Below are positions 2,837 through 13,511 of a DNA stretch of 48,734 nucleotides, one piece after another (positions within the stretch are counted from its first letter, which is position 1; each line of letters starts with the position of its first letter). Position numbers and translations under genes: made by a program. This DNA comes from Cellulomonas citrea (GTDB lineage: Bacteria > Actinomycetota > Actinomycetes > Actinomycetales > Cellulomonadaceae), in NCBI RefSeq assembly GCF_009829685.1, contig NZ_VWSD01000007.1:1-48734 (forward strand), read 5' to 3'. The notes beneath the pieces were generated by a model. It made no database searches, was not told the origin of the DNA, and saw nothing but the letters and a program-made list of their open reading frames with translations.

Positions 2837-3733
2837 CTACAGCTGGATCGTCGCGTAGGTGCCGACCTGACGGAACCCGACCGCCAGGTACGCGGCGATC
2901 GCCCGGGTGTTGTACACGTTGGCGTACAGCGAGACGACGGGCGCGAGGTCCCGCTGGGCGAGGCGCACGACCGCTGCCATCCCGGGTTCGGACAACCCGG
3001 TGCCACGCCGGTCCGGGGTCACCCAGACGCCCTGCACCTGGGCGACACCCAGCCCGACCGCGGCCAGCTCGGCCTTGAAGACCACCCGGGGGGCGCCCTT
3101 GTCGTCCTCGACCCGCACCAGCGAACGACCGGCGGCGATGAGACCGCGCACGCGGGAGGTGTACCCCGCGCCGCCACCGGACATCGGCGAGTAGCCGACC
3201 TCCTCGGTGAACATCCGCACGCAGGCCGGGAGCACGATGTCGAGCTCGGCGGGCCGGGAGGTGCGGACCAGCGGGTCGGCCGCCACCCGGGGCGGTCCGT
3301 CGATGACCATCGACGGCTGGTCCGCACGCACGTCCCGGGCCGGTGCGCGACCATCGCTCAGCACCTGCCACAAGTCCATGACGAGCTCGGCCGGGCCGAC
3401 GAGCGAGGAGTAGCTGCGTGGGCGGCGCGCCGCGAGCTCGGCGAACCCGGCCAGGGCCCGGGCCCGGGTGCGCCGGTCCAGCCCCGGGGCCACCGGCACG
3501 AGGTTGGCGCTCACCAGGACGACCGCGAGCAGCTGACCGTCCTCCGCGTAGCCCCACAGCTCGTTGCCGGTCCGGGCCAGTCCCCCGGTGGCGGCCAGTT
3601 CGAGCCGCGCCGACGCGAGCACGGCTGCGACGGGGTCGACCGCGCACAGCGCCAGGGCAGCGGGCACCGCGTCGTCGCCGAGGACCTGCGCACCGGGGCG
3701 CAGCCCGGTCGCGCGGCCGGCCACCGTGGTCAT
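2837..3733 (-). CDS. GNAT acetyltransferase, DUF4081 type
   Basis: 298-residue protein. The C-terminal half (about residues 155-298) is a GNAT fold: VQGVWVTPDRRGTGL is the acetyl-CoA-binding strand and loop, and the NVYNTRAIAAYLAVGF segment is the typical terminal motif. The N-terminal half resembles the DUF4081 domain found fused to GNAT in actinobacteria. The substrate is unknown. In other actinobacteria this gene sits directly between ispG and proS; here it is separated from ispG by the regulator/surface-protein cassette and from proS by the glycosylase gene. The ATG at 3733 was chosen because the upstream extension of the frame is arginine-rich, non-conserved-looking sequence. Confidence 0.85.
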   Translation of the reverse strand: MTTVAGRATGLRPGAQVLGDDAVPAALALCAVDPVAAVLASARLELAATGGLARTGNELWGYAEDGQLLAVVLVSANLVPVAPGLDRRTRARALAGFAELAARRPRSYSSLVGPAELVMDLWQVLSDGRAPARDVRADQPSMVIDGPPRVAADPLVRTSRPAELDIVLPACVRMFTEEVGYSPMSGGGAGYTSRVRGLIAAGRSLVRVEDDKGAPRVVFKAELAAVGLGVAQVQGVWVTPDRRGTGLSEPGMAAVVRLAQRDLAPVVSLYANVYNTRAIAAYLAVGFRQVGTYATIQL

Positions 3734-4014
3734 GGCGTCAGTGTGCCCCAGGTCACGGCCCTCGCGCAGAGGTTGCGCGGATCGCCCTCGTCGGCCCCGC
3801 ACGGCGCGGACCGGCCGCCCACGACGGACCTGGCCGACGCCCCGGAGCCCCACCTGGGTGGCACCACCCCAGGCACGCACTTCACCCCGCCGGACCGGCG
3901 CCCGGATGCCGAGCACCTGAGGACGAACCGGTACATTCCGGCCCCAGGCACAGGGAGCCCCGGGCGGTCCGAGGAGTGGTGCGGCGACCCGAGACCGGGC
4001 ACGAGGAGGTGGCT

Positions 4015-6573
4015 GTGCGGTACGGCGTCCCCCGGGTGCCCACCTGGAACGTGGCGCGAGTCACCCTGCTGGACCGGCTCGACCCCGCGGCCCCGCTGCT
4101 GCTCGTGCACGGCCCTGTGGGGAGCGGCACGACCACGCTGCTCGCCGACTGGGCGCTCACCCGCCACCCCGTGGACCGGCCTCTCGTCTGGGTCGACCTC
4201 GCCGGTCTGGCCGAACCGGCCGCCGTGTGGTCGGCTGTCGTCGACGCCGTGGTCGACGCCGGGCTCACCGCGCGGCCGCCGGCCGGGTCCGACGGCGCCT
4301 GCACGCCGCGGGCCGCCCGGCACGGCCTGCTCCGCGCGATCGGGTCCGTGACGATCGTGCTCGACGGCCTGCGGCGCCCGGGAGAGGCGTCCCTCGCACG
4401 CGACATGGTCGACCTCGTGCGCACCTGTCCCCGGCTGCACCTGGCGATCACCACGCACGGCGATCCGCGGGCCCTGCGGCAGGCCGCGTCGCTGTCGGTC
4501 GACCTCGTCGACCTGGGGCCGGCCGAGCTCGCGCTCACCCCCGACGAGGTCGCCCAGGTGCTCGGAGGCGGTGGGTCCGACCCGGGCGCCGCCGACGCGG
4601 TGCACGAGGCCACGGGCGGTCTGCCGGCCGCGGTCCGCGCGCTCGCCGTGGCCGCCGCCGACGGCACGCTCGACCTGCGCACGGCGTCATCCGAGGCGCT
4701 CACCGCGGTCGCGGCCGCGGAGGTGGTACGCGCGCTGCGCACCGAGGAAATCGATCTGGACGAGCACGTCCTGTCGATCGCCCGGAGGCTGTCCGTCGCC
4801 GCCCGCATCACACCGTCGCTCGCGCAGCACCTGGCCGGCGAGCAGGTCGACGGTGTGCTCAGCGACCTGCTCGACGCCGGCCTCGGCACGTGGACCACGC
4901 AGCCGCAGCCCGCGCTCGTCCTCACCCCCGTGGTGCGCCGGGCGCTGCGCGCCGAGCTCACGCGTGACGAACCCGCACTCGTCGAGCCCCTGCTGCGGAC
5001 CGTCGTCGAGCAGGCGCTCGCCGACCAGGACCCGACGACGGCCCTCACCGCCGCGACCGAGCTCGGCGACACCACGCTGGTCGGCACCGTCCTGCTCACC
5101 TCGATGGCGGCCGGCGGCACAGGAGACAGCCAGCAGACCCTCCGGCTGCTCCGCCGGCTGCCGACCGCCGCGCTCTCCCACGACCCGGTGCTCGCGTTCT
5201 TCATGGCGCTGAGCTACGGCACCGACGCGCGCCAACGGCCCCGTGCGCTGGAGTGGCTCGCTCTGGCGTCCGCAGCCATCGCCCACCGCGCACCGCAGGC
5301 GGACCCGGACGAGCAGACCCTGCTGCACGTCGCCGAGGCCGTCGTGCTGCGGCTGCGGGGCAAGGCCGAGCAAGCCGCTGCGACCGCCCGGCTCGCACTC
5401 GACCGGCTCGACACCACGCCCCGACGGGCGAACCACCTGATCGACCTGCTGCAACCGGTGGCGCACCGCCAGCTCGGTCTCACGCTCGCCGTCGCCGGCC
5501 ACCTCGGCGAGGGCATCGCCGCGATCAACCGGGCGCTGGCCTACGAGCAGCCCGGCTCGGCGGGCGAGTTCACCGTGCACAGCCTCCTGGCCGGGCTCAC
5601 CGCGACCCAGCACGACCTGCGGGTGGCGGCCGAGCACCTCGCCGCCGTCGACCGGATGCCTCGACCGCCGCGCACCGCCGCGCCCTACCAGCACGCCCTC
5701 GCCGACCTCGCGCGGATCCTGCTCTGGCTCGAGGCGGGTGAGGTCGACCGCGCCGAGCGGCTGCTGGACGAGCTCGGGCCCGAGCTGACCACGCACGAGC
5801 TGTGGGCGCCCTTCGCGCAGGCCTGGGCCTCGATCGACCTGCTCCGGGCCCGACCAGCCGTGGGCGAGGAACGGCTCGTCCAGGCGATGCGTGCCGGCCG
5901 GCGCGCCCCGCTGCCCACCCACTGGAGCTCGGCGCTCGTCGCCACCCGCGCGCTGCTGGCGCTCGCTGACGGCCAGGGCGAACGAGGCCTGGCGATGCTG
6001 GCGCCGCTGTCCTCCAGCCACCAGGCGGTCCGCGTCGTGCGCGCGCGGCTGCTGGTGTCCACCGGGCGGCTGGAGCAGGCGTCGTCGCTGCTCGCCTCCG
6101 CCGATCTGCCCGACGAAGGACCGTGGCTGCGCTCGGCGCGCAGGTTCCTGCTCGCCGTGACGGCCGATGCGCTCGGTCGGCCGCAGGTCGCCCGGACCTC
6201 CGCACGACAGGGCGTGGCGATCTCGCGCGCGGCCAGGACCGCGTACGGCTGGCTCGTGCTGGCCGACGACGAGCGGGCCGTGCTGCGCAGGCTGCTCGCC
6301 GGGACCGGCGAGGAGGAGACCGAGGCGTTCCTGCGCACCGTGCAGAGTGCGCCCTGCGTGCTGCCGGGTCGGGTCGGGGCCGCCGACCTCACCCGCCGTG
6401 AGCAGGTGGTGCTCGCGCACCTCGCCGAGGACGTCGAGCTCGCCGGCGTGGCGGCCCGGCTGCACGTGTCGCCCAACACGGTGAAGTCCCAGGTCCGCGG
6501 GGTCTACCGCAAGCTGGGCGTGGCATCCCGTGCCGAGGCGGTCGCGCGGGCCAAGGAGCTCGGGCTGCTCTAG
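4015..6573 (+). CDS. large LuxR-family (LAL/MalT-like) transcriptional regulator
   Basis: 852-residue regulator built like the LAL/MalT class: an N-terminal nucleotide-binding domain, a long helical middle region with TPR-like repeats (about residues 350-770), and a C-terminal LuxR helix-turn-helix (from about residue 792; LTRREQVVLAHLAED, then VSPNTVKSQVRGVYRKLG). The P-loop at residues 33-41 reads GPVGSGTTT: the invariant lysine of GxxxxGK[ST] is replaced by threonine. A Walker-B-like TIVLDG follows. GTG 4015 was chosen for its AGGAGG at 4004-4009; the open frame continues upstream without a ribosome-binding site. A TACATT hexamer at 3932-3937 is a possible -10. The gene diverges from the GNAT gene and lies just upstream of, and on the same strand as, the giant surface-protein gene, its most likely local target (inference). 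Confidence 0.88.
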   Translation: MRYGVPRVPTWNVARVTLLDRLDPAAPLLLVHGPVGSGTTTLLADWALTRHPVDRPLVWVDLAGLAEPAAVWSAVVDAVVDAGLTARPPAGSDGACTPRAARHGLLRAIGSVTIVLDGLRRPGEASLARDMVDLVRTCPRLHLAITTHGDPRALRQAASLSVDLVDLGPAELALTPDEVAQVLGGGGSDPGAADAVHEATGGLPAAVRALAVAAADGTLDLRTASSEALTAVAAAEVVRALRTEEIDLDEHVLSIARRLSVAARITPSLAQHLAGEQVDGVLSDLLDAGLGTWTTQPQPALVLTPVVRRALRAELTRDEPALVEPLLRTVVEQALADQDPTTALTAATELGDTTLVGTVLLTSMAAGGTGDSQQTLRLLRRLPTAALSHDPVLAFFMALSYGTDARQRPRALEWLALASAAIAHRAPQADPDEQTLLHVAEAVVLRLRGKAEQAAATARLALDRLDTTPRRANHLIDLLQPVAHRQLGLTLAVAGHLGEGIAAINRALAYEQPGSAGEFTVHSLLAGLTATQHDLRVAAEHLAAVDRMPRPPRTAAPYQHALADLARILLWLEAGEVDRAERLLDELGPELTTHELWAPFAQAWASIDLLRARPAVGEERLVQAMRAGRRAPLPTHWSSALVATRALLALADGQGERGLAMLAPLSSSHQAVRVVRARLLVSTGRLEQASSLLASADLPDEGPWLRSARRFLLAVTADALGRPQVARTSARQGVAISRAARTAYGWLVLADDERAVLRRLLAGTGEEETEAFLRTVQSAPCVLPGRVGAADLTRREQVVLAHLAEDVELAGVAARLHVSPNTVKSQVRGVYRKLGVASRAEAVARAKELGLL

Positions 6574-6581
6574 CTCGCCGC

Positions 6582-6630
6582 GTCCGGGGTGTCTCGCGGC
6601 GGAGCGGGTGACGTGCCGTTCACCCCGGAC
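6582..6630. repeat. 10-bp inverted repeat between regulator and surface-protein genes
   Basis: GTCCGGGGTG (6582-6591) is exactly mirrored by CACCCCGGAC (6621-6630) with a 29-nt spacer. It begins 8 nt after the regulator stop and ends about 85 nt before the surface-protein ATG. It could be an RNA hairpin that attenuates or terminates transcription, or a two-half-site operator. The sequence does not decide between these. Confidence 0.45.
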
Positions 6631-6715
6631 CTCACCCTGCGCACCCCACCGCACGGCCGATGGTGTCGGGCTGGAACGGACGCCGCGCGTCCAGCACCCC
6701 GACCCGGACGGACCC

Positions 6716-9700
6716 ATGCACCTGCACGTCGCCGACCCCCGACCCGCCACGACCGCACGCGGTCGACGTCGCCGCCGGCTGAGCCTGGTGCTCGCCGTCC
6801 TGCTCACCGGGGGCGTCGCCGTCACGGTGCCGGCCTCGGCCCAGGCCGCGCCCGACGGCAGGGGCGCGCTCAGCGTGCGCAAGACCGTGTCGGCCGCCAC
6901 AGCCCGGCCCGGCGACCGCCTCACCTGGACCGTCCAGGTGACCTGCGAGTCCATCACCGCCATGTGCCAGGACGTCACCCTCGACGACACCGTGCCCAGC
7001 CCGTTCGTGCTCGACGACAACGGGGTGAGCGTGCAGGGGCAGCAGACCGGGCACGCCACCACCACCGTGTCCGGCAGCTCCGTGACGGTCGCGTTCGCCG
7101 AGACGGACCCGAACCACCCCGGGGCCACCGGGCTGGCGGCCGGGCAGTCGGTCTCCGTGCTGCTGTCCACGACGCTGCCCGCCGGGACGGGGCTCAGCTG
7201 GGACGGGCGCACCGTCACGAACACGGCCCAGGCGCGGGCCACGAACGCCGACCAGGCCACCGACTCCGCCGACGTGTCCGTCGTCGTCCCGGTGACCCCG
7301 TCGGTGGCCGTCACCAAGTCGTTCACCCCGTCCGACCAGGTCGCCGGGCAGTCCGGTCAGGTCGCCCTGCACCTGACCGCCGCGAACAGCTCACCCGTCG
7401 ACGGCACCGGACTCACGCTCACCGAGCCCGCCGCGACGTCCCCGGCCTCCTTCGGCCCCGGCACCCCGCTGGAGCTCACCGGCATCGGCAGCTGGACGCT
7501 GCCGCAGGGCGCGACGGCGATGAGCCTGGACCTGGTGACCGCGGACGGCACCACCACGGTCGGGCCGTACGCGGCCGGCGCGACGGTCGACACCGGCACG
7601 CTCGACCTCACAACCGTCACGGCGGTCACCGCCCGCTACACCGGGCCGATCGCTGCCGGCGGGTCGGCCGGGTCCCTCGACCTCCAGCTGCGGCAGAACG
7701 GCTCGGCGCCGCGCGATGCGGTGACGAAGGTCCCCGACACGGTGGCCGCCCACCTGGCGACCTCCCGCGGGGACGCCGATGCGACGGCGAGCGCCACCTT
7801 CCAGATCAACCCGGTCATCGTCGAGGTCTCGGCCGGCAAGGTCATCGACGGCGTCGCGCACGCCCAGGTGGTCGCGGGCGCCGACGCCACGGTCACGTTG
7901 ACCGCCACGAACTCCTCCAACACCTCGCTGGGCTCGCTGAGCATCGCGGAGCCGTCCGGCTCGTCGACGTCCCCGTTCGGCGACCCCGCCGCGGGCAAGC
8001 TCGGCTTCGTCGGGTTCGGCACCGACGGGTCGGGGACGCTGCCCGCCTCGACGTGGCCGTCCGGTGCGACCAGCGCGGTCGTCACCCTCACCGGGACAGG
8101 CACCGGTCTCCCCCAGCAGACCACCGTCGTCGCACCCTCAGGCGGCACGGTGACCTGGCCCTCCGTGCCCTCCGGTGCCGTCGTCACCGGGTTCACGGTG
8201 GCGTACACCGGGTCGGTGGCCGCCACCGCGAGCGCCCAGGTGCCGTTCCGGGTGCGGACGGACGCCGCCTGGGCGTCGACCACCCTGTTCCCCAACGAGG
8301 TCGCCGTCGACGGTGCGGCCAGCGACGGGACCGCCGCGGACACCCGCACCGCCTCGGCCGACCTCACCGTGCTGCCCCGCCGCGTCGTCACCACCACGAC
8401 CAAGACGCTGACCGGGACCGTCGGGACGACACCGGTGACCGGGGCCACCGGGCAGCAGCTCATCGCCCGGCTCACCGGCCGGATCTCGGCCGACACGACC
8501 GTCCCGGTCGACCAGCTCGTGGTCGAGGACCTCGCGGGGCCGGGCTCGACCCTCTGGTCGGTCGCCGCGCTCGACCGCATCGGCTCGGTGCAGGTCCCGT
8601 CGGGCGCCCAGGCGGCGGTCCTGCTGCACAGCTCCTCCGGCTGGGCCACGCTGGCGGGGCCGACGTCGGACGCCTCGACGCTGCTCGACCTGACGGTCCC
8701 GGCCGGCGTGGACGGCGTGCGCGTGGTCTACACCGGCACCTCGCTGCCGATCGACGGCACCTTCACCCCGGTCACCGCCCTCGTGTTCGCCCTCACCTCG
8801 ACCCAGACCCCAGGGACGTCGGCCACCGACACGGCCACCAGCACCGCGACCGGAACCGGCACCGGTGCGGGGCTGACCGGCCAGTCGCAGGGCGACGCCG
8901 CCGTGACGTTCGGACCGGGGTCCACACCGATCTCGCTCGACCGGGTGGACGCCTCCAAGTCGTGGCAGACGCCGGCGGCGCTCATCCCGCTGGACAACGC
9001 CGACCCCGGGGCGAGCGACCGGCCGACCAACCGGCTGACGCTGCGGGTGCAGAACATCACGGGCGTCCCTGTGCACACGCTGCGCATCGTCGACCCCGCC
9101 CCAGGCAGCACCTCGGACGCCTTCGAACGGGTCGACGTGACCCACCTGAGCGTCACGGCGCCCACCGGCACCACCGGTCTGCAGGTCGTGCTGCGGGACA
9201 GCACCGGTGCGACGCTGGCGACGCTCACGTCGGCCGGTGCGGTGGCGGCGCTCAGCGCGGCGGACCTCGCCGACGTGGCGGGCCTGTCGGCCACCGCCAC
9301 CGGCACGCTGCCGGACAACGCGGCACTCGTCGTGCAGGCCGACACCGTGCTGCGGGCCGCGACCCGCACCGACGGCACACCCGTCGTGGGCACGCAGGAC
9401 GGCCCGGCCTCGACCACCCTCACCAACACCCTGCGCGGCGACCTCGGTGACGGGACCGCCTCGGACGACGCCCAGGCGTCCACCGTGCTCTACCCGCAGG
9501 CACGCCAGCCGCTGGCCGCGGCCTCGGTCAAGTCGCTCACCCCGGCCACCGGGACCCGGTACTCCGCGAACGCTCGGACCGTCCGGCTCGCGCTGTCGGC
9601 CCATCGCACGAGCGACGCCGCCGTCAGCCGTCCGTCGCAGTACGTGCTGGAGGACACCACCGCGGCCTTCTGGGACGAGTTCGACCTCGTGGGCCTCACG

Positions 9701-12157
9701 GCGCTCTCCGGGATCACCTCCGCCGACGGCCCCGGATACACGGCCGCCGTGCAGTACCTCGTCGACGGCACCTGGTCGACGCCCGTGACCAGCGTCCTCG
9801 CGGCGGGCACGCCGACCACGTCCCCCGCCCTCCCGGCCGGGGCGGGCGCCCTGCCGAGCGGGGTGACCGGCGACCGCGTGACGGGCATCCGGGTCACGTT
9901 CACCGCCCCCGACGGCGCCTGGTTCGCCAACCGCACGGTCGGCGGGTTCGAGGGACCCACCGCCCTGGTGTCCCTGAGCCCGCGCAGCACCCTGCGCAGC
10001 TCGGCCGCCCTGGTGCCGACCGGCACGGTCACCAACGTCGTCACCGGCACCGTGACCGCCCAGTCCCTGAGCTCACCCGTGACGCTCACGCCGGCGTCGG
10101 CGACCTACACCGTGACCGACGGGACGCCCGGCGCCACCCTCACCAAGACGCCGGCCTCGACGACCACCGGGCCGGGCAGCCGGCTCGTCTTCACCCTCAC
10201 GGCCACGAGCAGCGGCTCGGCCCCGATCGCCGACCCGGTGCTCACCGACGTGCTGCCCACGGACGGCGACGGAGCCCAGCTCGTCTACGACCCGGACGTG
10301 TGGGGCGCCGCCACCGTGACCGTCACCCCGGCCGGCACGGACCTGGGGACCCCCACGGTCGCGCTCGTCGGCACCCAGCTGCAGGTGACGTTCCCGGCGG
10401 GCACCCGGCTCATGCCGGGTCAGCAGGTGCAGGTGAGCGTGCCGCTCGCGGTCCGGGCCGGGGTGGCCGCCGGGACCACGCTGGTCAACACCGCGCGGTT
10501 CACCGGCAGCGGTCTGGTGCGGGTGGCCACCGCCCAGGTCTCGGTGATCTCGTTGCCGACCTACCTGCGGGTCAAGGACGTGCGCGAGGACGTCACGGAC
10601 GGTGCCACCGCCTCCGGTGCGGTGAACTCCGTGACCGGTCAGGCGTGCACCTCCGCCGACGGCTTCTTCCGCACCCCGTGCCTGGTGCGGACGCAGCCGG
10701 GCGGGACGGAGACCTGGCGGCTGCGGCTGACCAACACGGGCAACCTGCCCACCGCCTCCGCGACGCTCGTCGACGTGCTGCCGTACGCCGGGGACACCGG
10801 CATCTCCCGCTCGCAGAGCACGAGCGCGCGCGGCAGCGTCTGGGCGACCCGGTACGTCGGTGACCTGCAGGTCAGCGGGGTCCCCACGGGGGCGAGCAGC
10901 ACGGTGTCCTACCTCGTGGGGGCCGCGACCTGCTCCTACACCGGCGACCCGCGCTCGGCTGACCCGTTCGGCTCCGGCTGCCCGGCCTCGGCGTGGACCC
11001 CGGCCGACCAGGTGGGCGACCTCTCGCAGGTGCGCGGTGTGCGGGTCGACCTTGACCTGTCGAGCGCCCGGCTGGAGCCGGGCCAGACCGTCACGGTGAC
11101 GTTCCGGACCCGCTCGGCCACGAGCTACGACCTGGCGGCCGCGGATGTCGACGCCCCTGCCTGGAACACCATGGCGGTGACGACCGCGAGCGTGAGCACC
11201 GCCGGGCTGGTCTACGAGACGCTCGAGCCCAACCGGGCCGGGGTCGCCGTCGACCGGACCTTCGCACTGGGCGACCGGGTGTGGCAGGACTTCGACCTGG
11301 ACGGTGTGCAGGACGAGGGTGAGCCGGGCGTCGGCGGGGTGCGGGTCGAGCTGTACCGGGCCGGCTCGGACACCCTGCTGGCGTCCACGACGACCGACGC
11401 CGACGGCCACTACCTCTTCGACATGCTGCCGGCCGGGGACTACCGGGTGCGGTTCGTGCCGGACGCAGCCACGGCCTCCCGGCTGATGTTCACCGTGACC
11501 GGCCAGGGTGACCCGTCGACGGACTCCGACGCCGACCGCAGCACGGGGTGGTCGGGCACGGTCCACCTGGGCTCCGACTCCGGCCGGGTCCGCGCGGTCG
11601 TGGCCGCCGACGGGTCGGCCGCGGACTACATCGACCCGACGGTCGATGCCGGCATGGCGCCGCACACCGACGTGGCACTCACGATGACCAAGAAGGCGGT
11701 GGACCGTTCGGCCTCGACCGTCACCTGGCTGCTCACGGCGACCTCGGTCGGCCTGCACGACACGTGGGCGGGGATCACGGTCACCGACCCGCTCCCCCGG
11801 GGCCTGCGGTTCGTCTCGGCGTCCGGCGACGGCTTCACCTGCACGGCGGACGACGGGCAGGTCACCTGCTCGCACCCGGACCGGCTGGCGGCCGGCACCT
11901 CCGCGACCGTCACGGTCGTCACGACGCTGGTGGACCCGCGCAGCACCGTGTCCAACACGGCCACCGTCCAGGCCGACCGGCCGCACGGGGTGATCCAGGT
12001 GCTGGCAGACAGCGGGTCGGCGACCAGCGCCCCGTCCCGCGGGTCGCTCGCCTCGACGGGTGCCGCAGGTCTCGGGTGGCTGCTCGCGGCCGCGGTGCTC
12101 GCGCTGGGATCCGGTGCCGGGCTGCTGCTGCTCGTCCGGTCTCGTCGAACCCGCTGA
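6716..12157 (+). CDS. giant secreted, wall-anchored surface protein (DUF11/SdrB-like, LASTG anchor)
   Basis: 1813 residues. The N-terminus is a Sec signal peptide: arginine run at residues 17-21, hydrophobic core, and AQA-A cleavage near 44-45. The body is Thr/Ser/Ala/Gly-rich beta-sandwich-like sequence with several repeated modules of roughly 165-200 residues, many closing with a strand such as GFTVAYTG, GVRVVYTG or GIRVTFTA. A DUF11-like module follows (TGPGSRLVFTLTATSSG). Residues about 1515-1585 resemble an SdrD B-type domain (GDRVWQDFDLDGVQDEGEPG, then DADGHYLFDMLPAGDY), and about 1650-1745 is another DUF11-like repeat. It ends with LASTG (1778-1782), a hydrophobic segment and RSRRTR: a sorting signal matching the LAXTG motif of class E sortases. 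No sortase is encoded in the window. An adhesin, fibre or S-layer-like role is inferred. The start was chosen because it yields the signal peptide. Confidence 0.88.
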   Translation: MHLHVADPRPATTARGRRRRRLSLVLAVLLTGGVAVTVPASAQAAPDGRGALSVRKTVSAATARPGDRLTWTVQVTCESITAMCQDVTLDDTVPSPFVLDDNGVSVQGQQTGHATTTVSGSSVTVAFAETDPNHPGATGLAAGQSVSVLLSTTLPAGTGLSWDGRTVTNTAQARATNADQATDSADVSVVVPVTPSVAVTKSFTPSDQVAGQSGQVALHLTAANSSPVDGTGLTLTEPAATSPASFGPGTPLELTGIGSWTLPQGATAMSLDLVTADGTTTVGPYAAGATVDTGTLDLTTVTAVTARYTGPIAAGGSAGSLDLQLRQNGSAPRDAVTKVPDTVAAHLATSRGDADATASATFQINPVIVEVSAGKVIDGVAHAQVVAGADATVTLTATNSSNTSLGSLSIAEPSGSSTSPFGDPAAGKLGFVGFGTDGSGTLPASTWPSGATSAVVTLTGTGTGLPQQTTVVAPSGGTVTWPSVPSGAVVTGFTVAYTGSVAATASAQVPFRVRTDAAWASTTLFPNEVAVDGAASDGTAADTRTASADLTVLPRRVVTTTTKTLTGTVGTTPVTGATGQQLIARLTGRISADTTVPVDQLVVEDLAGPGSTLWSVAALDRIGSVQVPSGAQAAVLLHSSSGWATLAGPTSDASTLLDLTVPAGVDGVRVVYTGTSLPIDGTFTPVTALVFALTSTQTPGTSATDTATSTATGTGTGAGLTGQSQGDAAVTFGPGSTPISLDRVDASKSWQTPAALIPLDNADPGASDRPTNRLTLRVQNITGVPVHTLRIVDPAPGSTSDAFERVDVTHLSVTAPTGTTGLQVVLRDSTGATLATLTSAGAVAALSAADLADVAGLSATATGTLPDNAALVVQADTVLRAATRTDGTPVVGTQDGPASTTLTNTLRGDLGDGTASDDAQASTVLYPQARQPLAAASVKSLTPATGTRYSANARTVRLALSAHRTSDAAVSRPSQYVLEDTTAAFWDEFDLVGLTALSGITSADGPGYTAAVQYLVDGTWSTPVTSVLAAGTPTTSPALPAGAGALPSGVTGDRVTGIRVTFTAPDGAWFANRTVGGFEGPTALVSLSPRSTLRSSAALVPTGTVTNVVTGTVTAQSLSSPVTLTPASATYTVTDGTPGATLTKTPASTTTGPGSRLVFTLTATSSGSAPIADPVLTDVLPTDGDGAQLVYDPDVWGAATVTVTPAGTDLGTPTVALVGTQLQVTFPAGTRLMPGQQVQVSVPLAVRAGVAAGTTLVNTARFTGSGLVRVATAQVSVISLPTYLRVKDVREDVTDGATASGAVNSVTGQACTSADGFFRTPCLVRTQPGGTETWRLRLTNTGNLPTASATLVDVLPYAGDTGISRSQSTSARGSVWATRYVGDLQVSGVPTGASSTVSYLVGAATCSYTGDPRSADPFGSGCPASAWTPADQVGDLSQVRGVRVDLDLSSARLEPGQTVTVTFRTRSATSYDLAAADVDAPAWNTMAVTTASVSTAGLVYETLEPNRAGVAVDRTFALGDRVWQDFDLDGVQDEGEPGVGGVRVELYRAGSDTLLASTTTDADGHYLFDMLPAGDYRVRFVPDAATASRLMFTVTGQGDPSTDSDADRSTGWSGTVHLGSDSGRVRAVVAADGSAADYIDPTVDAGMAPHTDVALTMTKKAVDRSASTVTWLLTATSVGLHDTWAGITVTDPLPRGLRFVSASGDGFTCTADDGQVTCSHPDRLAAGTSATVTVVTTLVDPRSTVSNTATVQADRPHGVIQVLADSGSATSAPSRGSLASTGAAGLGWLLAAAVLALGSGAGLLLLVRSRRTR

Positions 12158-12165
12158 CCCCGGCA

Positions 12166-12202
12166 GGTCAGGCCGCACGTCACCGCGACGGGCGGTCTGA
12201 CC
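12166..12202. terminator. candidate bidirectional terminator
   Basis: An 11-bp stem (12166-12176 with 12192-12202, one G-T wobble) with a 15-nt loop lies in the 99-nt gap between the convergent surface-protein and ispG genes. It is placed to stop transcripts from both sides. There is no U-tract. Confidence 0.5.
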
Positions 12203-12256
12203 AGCAAGGCGGCATGAGCCTGCCGACCCGGGACGGAGCGGTCCGAATGCGTCCGG

Positions 12257-13411
12257 TCAGCCGACGACGACCTGCGGTGCGCCGGACTCGACCGGCTCCA
12301 TGGTCTCGGCGATCCGCAGCGCCTCCTCGATGAGGGTCTCGACGATCTGCGACTCGGGCACCGTCTTGACGACCTGCCCCTTGACGAAGATCTGGCCCTT
12401 GCCGTTGCCGGACGCGACACCCAGGTCGGCCTCGCGCGCCTCGCCCGGACCGTTGACGACGCAGCCCATGACGGCCACCCGCAGCGGCACCGTGAGGCCC
12501 TCGAGCCCGGCGGTGACCTTCTCGGCGAGCGTGTAGACGTCCACCTGGGCGCGGCCGCACGAGGGGCAGGACACGATCTCCAGCTTGCGGGGGCGCAGGT
12601 TGAGCGACTGCAGGATCGCCGCGCCGACCTTGACCTCCTCGACGGGCGGTGCCGACAGGGAGACGCGGATGGTGTCGCCGATGCCCTGGGACAGCAGCGC
12701 ACCGAACGCGGTGGCCGACTTGATGGTGCCCTGGAACGTCGGACCGGCCTCGGTCACGCCCAGGTGCAGCGGCCAGTCGCCACGTTCGGCGAGCAGCTGG
12801 TAGGCGCGCACCATGACGACGGGGTCGTTGTGCTTCACCGAGATCTTGAAGTCGTGGAAGTCGTGCTCCTCGAACAGCGACGCCTCCCAGACGGCCGACT
12901 CGACGAGCGCCTCGGGGGTGGCCTTGCCGTACTTGGCGAGCAGCCGCGGGTCGAGCGACCCGGCGTTCACCCCGATCCGCAGCGAGACCCCGGCGTCGGA
13001 GGCCGCCTGCGCGATCTGCTTGACCTGGTCGTCGAACTTGCGGATGTTGCCCGGGTTGACGCGTACGGCGGCGCACCCGGCGTCGATCGCGGCGAACACG
13101 TACTTGGGCTGGAAGTGGATGTCGGCGATCACCGGGATCTGGCTCTTGCGGGCGATCGCCGGCAGCGCGTCGGCGTCGTCCTGGCTGGGGACGGCCACCC
13201 GGACGATGTCGCAGCCCGCGGCGGTCAGCTCGGCGATCTGCTGCAACGTCGCGTTGATGTCGGTGGTCGGGGTGGTGCACATCGACTGGATGCTGATCGG
13301 GGCGTCGCCGCCGACCTCCACCTTGCCGACCCGGATCTTGCGGGTGGGCCGGCGCGGGGCCAGCACGGCGACCGGGGCGGCGGGCATGCCGAGGGAGACT
13401 GAGGTGCTCAC
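12257..13411 (-). CDS. ispG: 4-hydroxy-3-methylbut-2-en-1-yl diphosphate synthase
   Basis: Iron-sulfur enzyme of the MEP pathway; converts methylerythritol cyclodiphosphate to HMBPP in the cytoplasm. The 384-residue protein has a TIM-barrel N-terminal half ([42 protein letters not shown]) and a C-terminal half with the [4Fe-4S] ligands: CPSCGR and CVVNGPGE. The GTG at 13411 was chosen because a GGGAG lies about 9 nt upstream; an internal start at MPAAPV is possible. It follows rseP on the same strand after a 100-nt gap. dxr, the MEP entry enzyme, lies 14 kb to the right; in related genomes the two are much closer. Confidence 0.97.
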
Positions 13412-13511
13412 CCGAGCATTCTCCCACCGCGGCCGCACGTTTCGCGGCCCGGCCGACCTGAGGGTCGGTGCCCAGCGCGGTGCGCGGGACCTCGCGGGGT
13501 GCTCGTCGAGG

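Follow-up and report, generated by a model that had tools for sequence, protein, structure and literature searches.

A LAL-type regulator, a predicted direct-repeat operator and a giant wall-anchored protein as a probable regulator-target unit in Cellulomonas citrea

LAL regulators are familiar mainly from the control of sugar utilisation and of secondary metabolism. Does one of them, with a threonine in place of the P-loop lysine, control the giant surface protein encoded next to it? The window analyzed here is a whole 48,734-nt stretch (contig NZ_VWSD01000007.1) of a 3.4-Mb draft assembly in 434 contigs. We confirmed what the preliminary description reported of its architecture, namely an 852-residue regulator, a 142-nt gap and, on the same strand, a 1813-residue wall protein with an LASTG motif. 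Its reading of the regulator P-loop as GPVGSGTTT, with threonine at the lysine position of the Walker A pattern GxxxxGK[ST], is likewise correct. We predict, with a probability of roughly three in four, that regulator, operator and wall protein form a dedicated regulator-target unit. The features are as follows.

2837-3733, minus strand: GNAT-like flanking gene (named by eye), left edge, outside the unit
3770-12252, no strand: extra DNA; similarity to genome G064 ends at ~3769 and restarts at ~12253
4015-6573, plus strand: LAL/STAND regulator of 852 aa with nucleotide-binding domain (NBD), winged-helix/arm, helical repeats and LuxR-type helix-turn-helix (HTH)
4111-4137, plus strand: Walker A region GPVGSGTTT, residues 33-41, with Thr39 at the lysine position (codon 4129-4131)
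4348-4368, plus strand: Walker B region VTIVLDG, Asp117 kept
6388-6546, plus strand: LuxR/GerE HTH, aa 792-844 (Pfam E 2e-11; PF00196, 43.8 bits)
6618-6639, plus strand: predicted operator GTTCACCCCGGACCTCACCCTG, half-sites TTCACC and CTCACC with starts 12 nt apart
6716-12157, plus strand: giant wall-anchored surface protein of 1813 aa
12047-12061, plus strand: LASTG sorting motif, then a hydrophobic stretch and the basic tail RSRRTR
12257-13438, minus strand: ispG flanking gene (named by eye), right edge, outside the unit

The regulator starts with GTG at 4015, just downstream of GAGGAGG, runs for 852 codons without a stop and aligns end to end with its relatives. Among solved structures, the one nearest to it by sequence is MalT (8bob_C, E 2e-33; 391 profile positions). 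An AlphaFold model of the regulator (pLDDT 87.3, pTM 0.74) also returned MalT first in Foldseek (TM-score to query 0.24), followed by CED-4 and Apaf-1; TM-scores are below 0.3 because the whole chain was compared. At E <= 1e-40 the LAL family was found in 38 of 221 genomes. A tree of 36 rows places the window regulator beside six group-1 members with clade support of 100/100, on a branch of its own of 0.74, and its relatives reach ~47% identity at most. Group-1 LALs are present in eight genomes: that of the window, G073, G011, G049, G055, G065, G005 and, as a partial copy, G022.

The wall protein carries the LPxTG-like motif, hydrophobic stretch and basic tail of the sortase-anchored class, into which its sequence places it. 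The C-terminal signals of its orthologues read LAVTG, LARTG or LAITG, its N-terminus (RGRRRRRLSLVLAVLLTGG...AQAA) looks like a signal peptide by eye, and the source genome has three sortase-domain matches, all on other contigs. Recognized domains are a TIGR04226 isopeptide-type fimbrial domain (aa 53-172), SdrD_B (1517-1621) and DUF11 (best stretch 1652-1754), while Pfam gives no family over most of the 1813 residues. Residues 51-528 were modeled as an all-beta domain array (pLDDT 91.2). Foldseek listed integrin alpha chains first for this segment; its top 20 also include Ig-like domains of PrgB and antigen I/II, and TM-scores to the query are <= 0.34. The model fits a stalk or adhesin and implies no ligand.

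ispG and the GNAT-like gene are adjacent in 9/9 relatives examined (79 have an IspG match), and in G064 about 0.1 kb lies between them. In the window the same interval measures ~8.5 kb and by our gene calls, made with a simple GC-frame script, consists of the regulator and the wall gene only; the calls gave no third gene in the inserted stretch. Its GC content is 75.3% vs 72.5% in the flanks. In the two genomes nearest by IspG, G064 (97%; 89% complete) and G061 (98% over two fragments; 81% complete), the wall segment found no counterpart, and the best regulator matches listed are HTH-sized, too short to bear on residue 39. We infer that regulator and wall gene would have entered the lineage as one block between ispG and the GNAT-like gene. 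Mobile-element ends at the block edges were rejected, as edge-to-edge repeats are no longer than in shuffles: the longest exact direct match is 7 nt and the longest inverted one 8 nt, against a shuffled mean of 8.3.

The pairing recurs elsewhere. When 81 genomes of the genus were searched with 478 aa of the wall protein, 27 matched, 12 strongly and 15 weakly; the strong set consists of the window itself plus 11 genomes at 57-63% identity. Seven of the eight group-1 LAL genomes encode a strong wall protein, in six of them directly downstream on the same strand. In the five linked genomes other than the window's, the DNA examined around the pair contains neither ispG nor the GNAT-like gene; G049, G055, G065 and G005 share a gene context, which differs from that of the window. 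The proposed pairing of regulator and surface protein thus holds at another genomic site in five further genomes, accompanied by a specific intergenic DNA site. In G011 the two genes lie on separate contigs, and the DNA site accompanies the pair even there. The co-occurrence that the preliminary description had wished to see checked is incomplete in the other direction: five strong wall orthologues (G021, G057, G056, G062 and G008) come without a group-1 LAL, G056 and G057 having a group-2 LAL elsewhere in the genome. A regulator homologue without the surface protein, which that description held would count against the pairing, also exists, as G073 lacks this wall protein and has a different one, with CshA repeats, two genes upstream. 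More broadly, 17 of the 209 genes within three of a LAL encode sorting-signal proteins vs 0 of 247 more distal ones, which amounts to 17 of 38 loci. The wall gene of G050 was apparently split by the gene calls and is left out of the counts; closer study also leaves aside G167 and, in G205, the second LAL.

Five orthologues of the wall protein, at loci L075-L079, have in place of a LAL a divergent neighbor that by eye is sigma-like, and they lack the operator. One frame tested beside these orthologues matched zf-HC2 and Big_6. The type of regulator has apparently been swapped there.

A third gene often stands near the LAL. The cassette was described as free of other genes, which is true of the window, but an MFS gene lies within three genes of the LAL at 16 of 38 loci and adjoins each of the six other group-1 LALs that are readable on the upstream side (MFS_1 was confirmed by Pfam in G049, G073 and G025). 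A profile search of the whole source genome found no MFS counterpart, the best match being partial at 30.7 bits; LAL neighbors in G073, G011 and G049 score 390-419 bits. In G022, where the LAL contig is cut, a partial 113-bit match lies on another contig. The MFS protein may be the signal partner of the relatives' switch.

The predicted operator was derived by aligning the six linked LAL-wall gaps, which share the block TTCACCCCGG..CTCACC. Its core TTCACCCCGGnnCTCACC (6619-6636) is present in all six, and in the window the operator ends 76 nt before the wall start codon. Among the five close genomes some of this conservation is to be expected; in the window, where the gap has otherwise diverged, it is less so. 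Scanning the family loci, we recovered 16/16 bases before the unlinked G011 wall gene and 15/16 before the G073 wall gene, while three shuffles of 820 kb contained one or two 14/16 matches and zero 15s. All 15- and 16-base sites of the scan are intergenic; three 14s fall in genes (G055, G139 and G142). Upstream of the five wall orthologues without a group-1 LAL the site was found in 0/5.

Genome-wide scans gave a similar distribution. The degenerate pattern TTCACMCCGGNNYTCACC occurs at 12 places in 11 of the 81 genus genomes (reversed-pattern control, 0): eight known sites before group-1 targets, a second G022 copy that falls within a gene, and one place each in G029, G056 and G057, which are among the 73 genus genomes without a group-1 LAL. 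The single exact match in the source genome is the 6618-6639 site; two one-mismatch sites both lie within called genes and 44 sites have two mismatches, so that matches total 47 vs 3 for the reversed pattern. A second pattern, TTTCACACCGNNNTTCACMC, chosen from the eight known sites, occurs at nine places in the 221 genomes. The one new place is in the LAL-bearing G085, before a DUF11-containing gene on a different contig from the LAL. Fisher P values for these contrasts (5e-9, 6e-8 and 0.001) are only descriptive because the patterns come from sites partly known beforehand, which makes them partly circular, and because the genomes are related. Only a handful of contrasts are independent, those given by the window, by the G049/G055/G065/G005/G022 cluster, by G011, by G073, by group 2 and by the family's remaining members.

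With a matrix built from 13 seed sites, 26 of the 38 LAL loci have a site above 18 bits, all 26 intergenic by our own gene calls. Eight of these lie outside the seeds, the one in G055 being a near copy of one seed. Twenty shuffles gave a mean of 0.35 sites above this threshold and a top chance score of 25.3 bits. At the remaining 12 loci the stretch covered contains no such site; some of these loci are cut by contig ends, while those of G173, G203, G207, G196 and G197 are not.

In the window and its cluster, and in G011, the site runs in the direction of its presumed target gene. It is reversed relative to the presumed target in G073 (L039:2209-2230), G050, G032, G057, G099 and G085. In G029, which has no group-1 LAL, an exact site (L180:1501-1518) stands just before a chemotaxis-receptor-like gene (by eye). 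In nine genomes (L158:10615-10636, L160:11163-11184, G117, G168, G170, G171, G142, G111 and G122) the site lies 49-119 nt before a gene of 303-319 aa, two products of which were tested and gave no Pfam match. Near these loci csrA (G172) and flhA (G122) were recognized by Pfam, and the LAL may control a flagellar locus in these nine genomes. In G139 (L150:5197-6801) the site separates the LAL from the divergent gene of a second GerE-domain protein, of 535 aa; next come an MFS gene and the gene of a 2081-aa LPRTG protein.

Overall, these patterns suggest that the regulator acts as a MalT-type STAND switch, which would bind the predicted operator at 6618-6639 through its LuxR HTH. From there the bound LAL would control, presumably activate, transcription of the giant wall protein. 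In its relatives the switch has a normal P-loop and often, encoded nearby, an MFS-type membrane protein that possibly helps to supply the signal.

What the threonine would do to this switch is a separate matter. The P-loop is readable at 36 of the 38 family loci (the region is absent from view in G022 and G167), and GK[ST] stands in 35 of these with threonine in the window alone; MalT aligns to the window P-loop with GYGKTT. Judged from these alignments, Thr39 is private to the window genome among readable relatives and not a family trait, and since the window regulator stands on its own 0.74 branch beside the group-1 members, the change is derived. The regulator is a P-loop LAL by descent, though not necessarily one that binds ATP. 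A degenerate ATPase as a property of the whole system, as initially suggested, is therefore not borne out, the threonine being confined to the branch of the window.

Thr39, taken as real, would be expected to abolish the usual ATP-driven activation. In the excerpted text of PMC5015266, MilR lost its activity in K37A and K37R variants and PikD required K38; by this precedent Thr39 should disable activation. No MFS counterpart was found either. The switch may therefore no longer function or may function without ATP, and control of the wall protein here would be either lost or no longer dependent on ATP.

That the regulator has lost its function is quite possible, if short of probable. Thr39 and the missing MFS gene would then mark early decay, and the wall gene would be silent or served by another promoter. 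Besides the MilR and PikD precedent and the MFS search, such a loss is favored by the columns that do not vary among the other six group-1 members. At these the window deviates in 14/39 NBD, 98/224 repeat and 8/48 HTH positions, more than G073 or G011 in every part, and the excess is greatest in the helical repeats (28/154 in G073). The extra deviations can be put down to the long branch. On the other hand, the reading frame is free of stops, the site is kept exactly, and positions conserved across the family are largely intact: the window deviates at 2/19 in the NBD (one being residue 39), 0/11 in the next stretch, 4/25 in the repeats and 0/18 in the HTH area (aa 780-852), compared with 0-3, 0-4, 0-9 and 0-2 in 19 other members. 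Decay of the NBD at family-conserved positions was rejected on these counts.

A regulator that has lost both partner and nucleotide switching and is permanently active or otherwise controlled is a somewhat doubtful alternative. It would account for Thr39 and the absence of a detectable MFS gene alongside a conserved HTH and an exact site, but the lysine was required in both LALs tested elsewhere, according to PMC5015266. The fuller version, in which the LAL family of the Cellulomonas group controls giant wall proteins through the operator with the MFS protein as its signal partner, and in which the window regulator, having shed both lysine and partner, still controls its one giant surface protein independently of nucleotide, is unlikely and we put it forward tentatively.

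We consider it improbable that Thr39 is a base-calling or assembly error in an ordinary LAL with an intact P-loop. An error would agree with the lysine in all 35 readable relatives, the retained P-loop glycines and Asp117, the single base between Thr and Lys codons and the draft state of the assembly. However, any given draft base is seldom wrong, and one more real change would fit a branch of 0.74 along which 14 of 39 group-1-invariant NBD positions differ. Lysine in close relatives had been named as a sign of sequence error; the relatives that have it are at most ~47% identical, so their lysine does not show one.

PHO boxes of actinobacteria consist of direct repeat units of 11 nt. It is very improbable that the site belongs to another factor, e.g. 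as a PhoP-type box, or is a mere promoter element with the LAL as bystander: GTTCACC does resemble the PHO repeat unit, orientation to the target varies and three exact sites lack a group-1 LAL, but the spacing is 12 nt, an 11-nt scan gave nothing in the window, and the site follows the LAL, standing before wall genes unlinked to it (G011, G085), before another wall protein (G073) and at other loci, and is missing before the five wall orthologues without the LAL. A PHO box was rejected on this spacing, the empty scan and the distribution.

The dedicated regulator-target unit would link the LAL family to giant wall proteins. Because the predicted operator is exact, this link can be tested directly, and G011 and G085 offer natural unlinked cases. 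The window is also a natural P-loop variant that asks whether a STAND regulator can work without the lysine. The direct-repeat site is new. Among the matches listed in open-licence literature, neither a LAL tied to a wall protein nor a LAL without the P-loop lysine was found.

The closest known system is MalT of Escherichia coli, the LAL/STAND prototype, which shares the domain order and the use of direct-repeat sites. MalT is closed when bound to ADP, switches to an open, multimerizing form bound to ATP (PMC4381067) and binds two boxes in direct repeat (excerpt of PMC6099782). The MalT box GGGGA(T/G)GAGG, as given in a part of PMC7567727, is resembled by the reverse complement of the window site, GGGGTGAA. 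Unlike MalT, the window regulator has threonine at the Walker A lysine, one presumed wall target, a 12-nt repeat and relatives with MFS genes alongside. MilR and PikD, pathway-specific LALs of Streptomyces, share the architecture and cluster-situated control, but their targets are genes of macrolide biosynthesis and they depend on the P-loop lysine (PMC5015266). The MalT-like LuxR regulator of Actinoplanes sp. SE50/110 is likewise actinobacterial, with a conserved MalT-box-like motif obtained by motif search; in contrast, that motif is palindromic (TCATCC-5nt-GGATGA) and the regulator affects 40 out of the 51 genes in a region (PMC7567727). Finally, the wall protein differs from CshA-type adhesins, whose repeats occur in the G073 and G057 wall proteins and not in that of the window, and resembles SdrD-type adhesins in its SdrD_B and DUF11 domains, LPxTG-like anchor and all-beta array.
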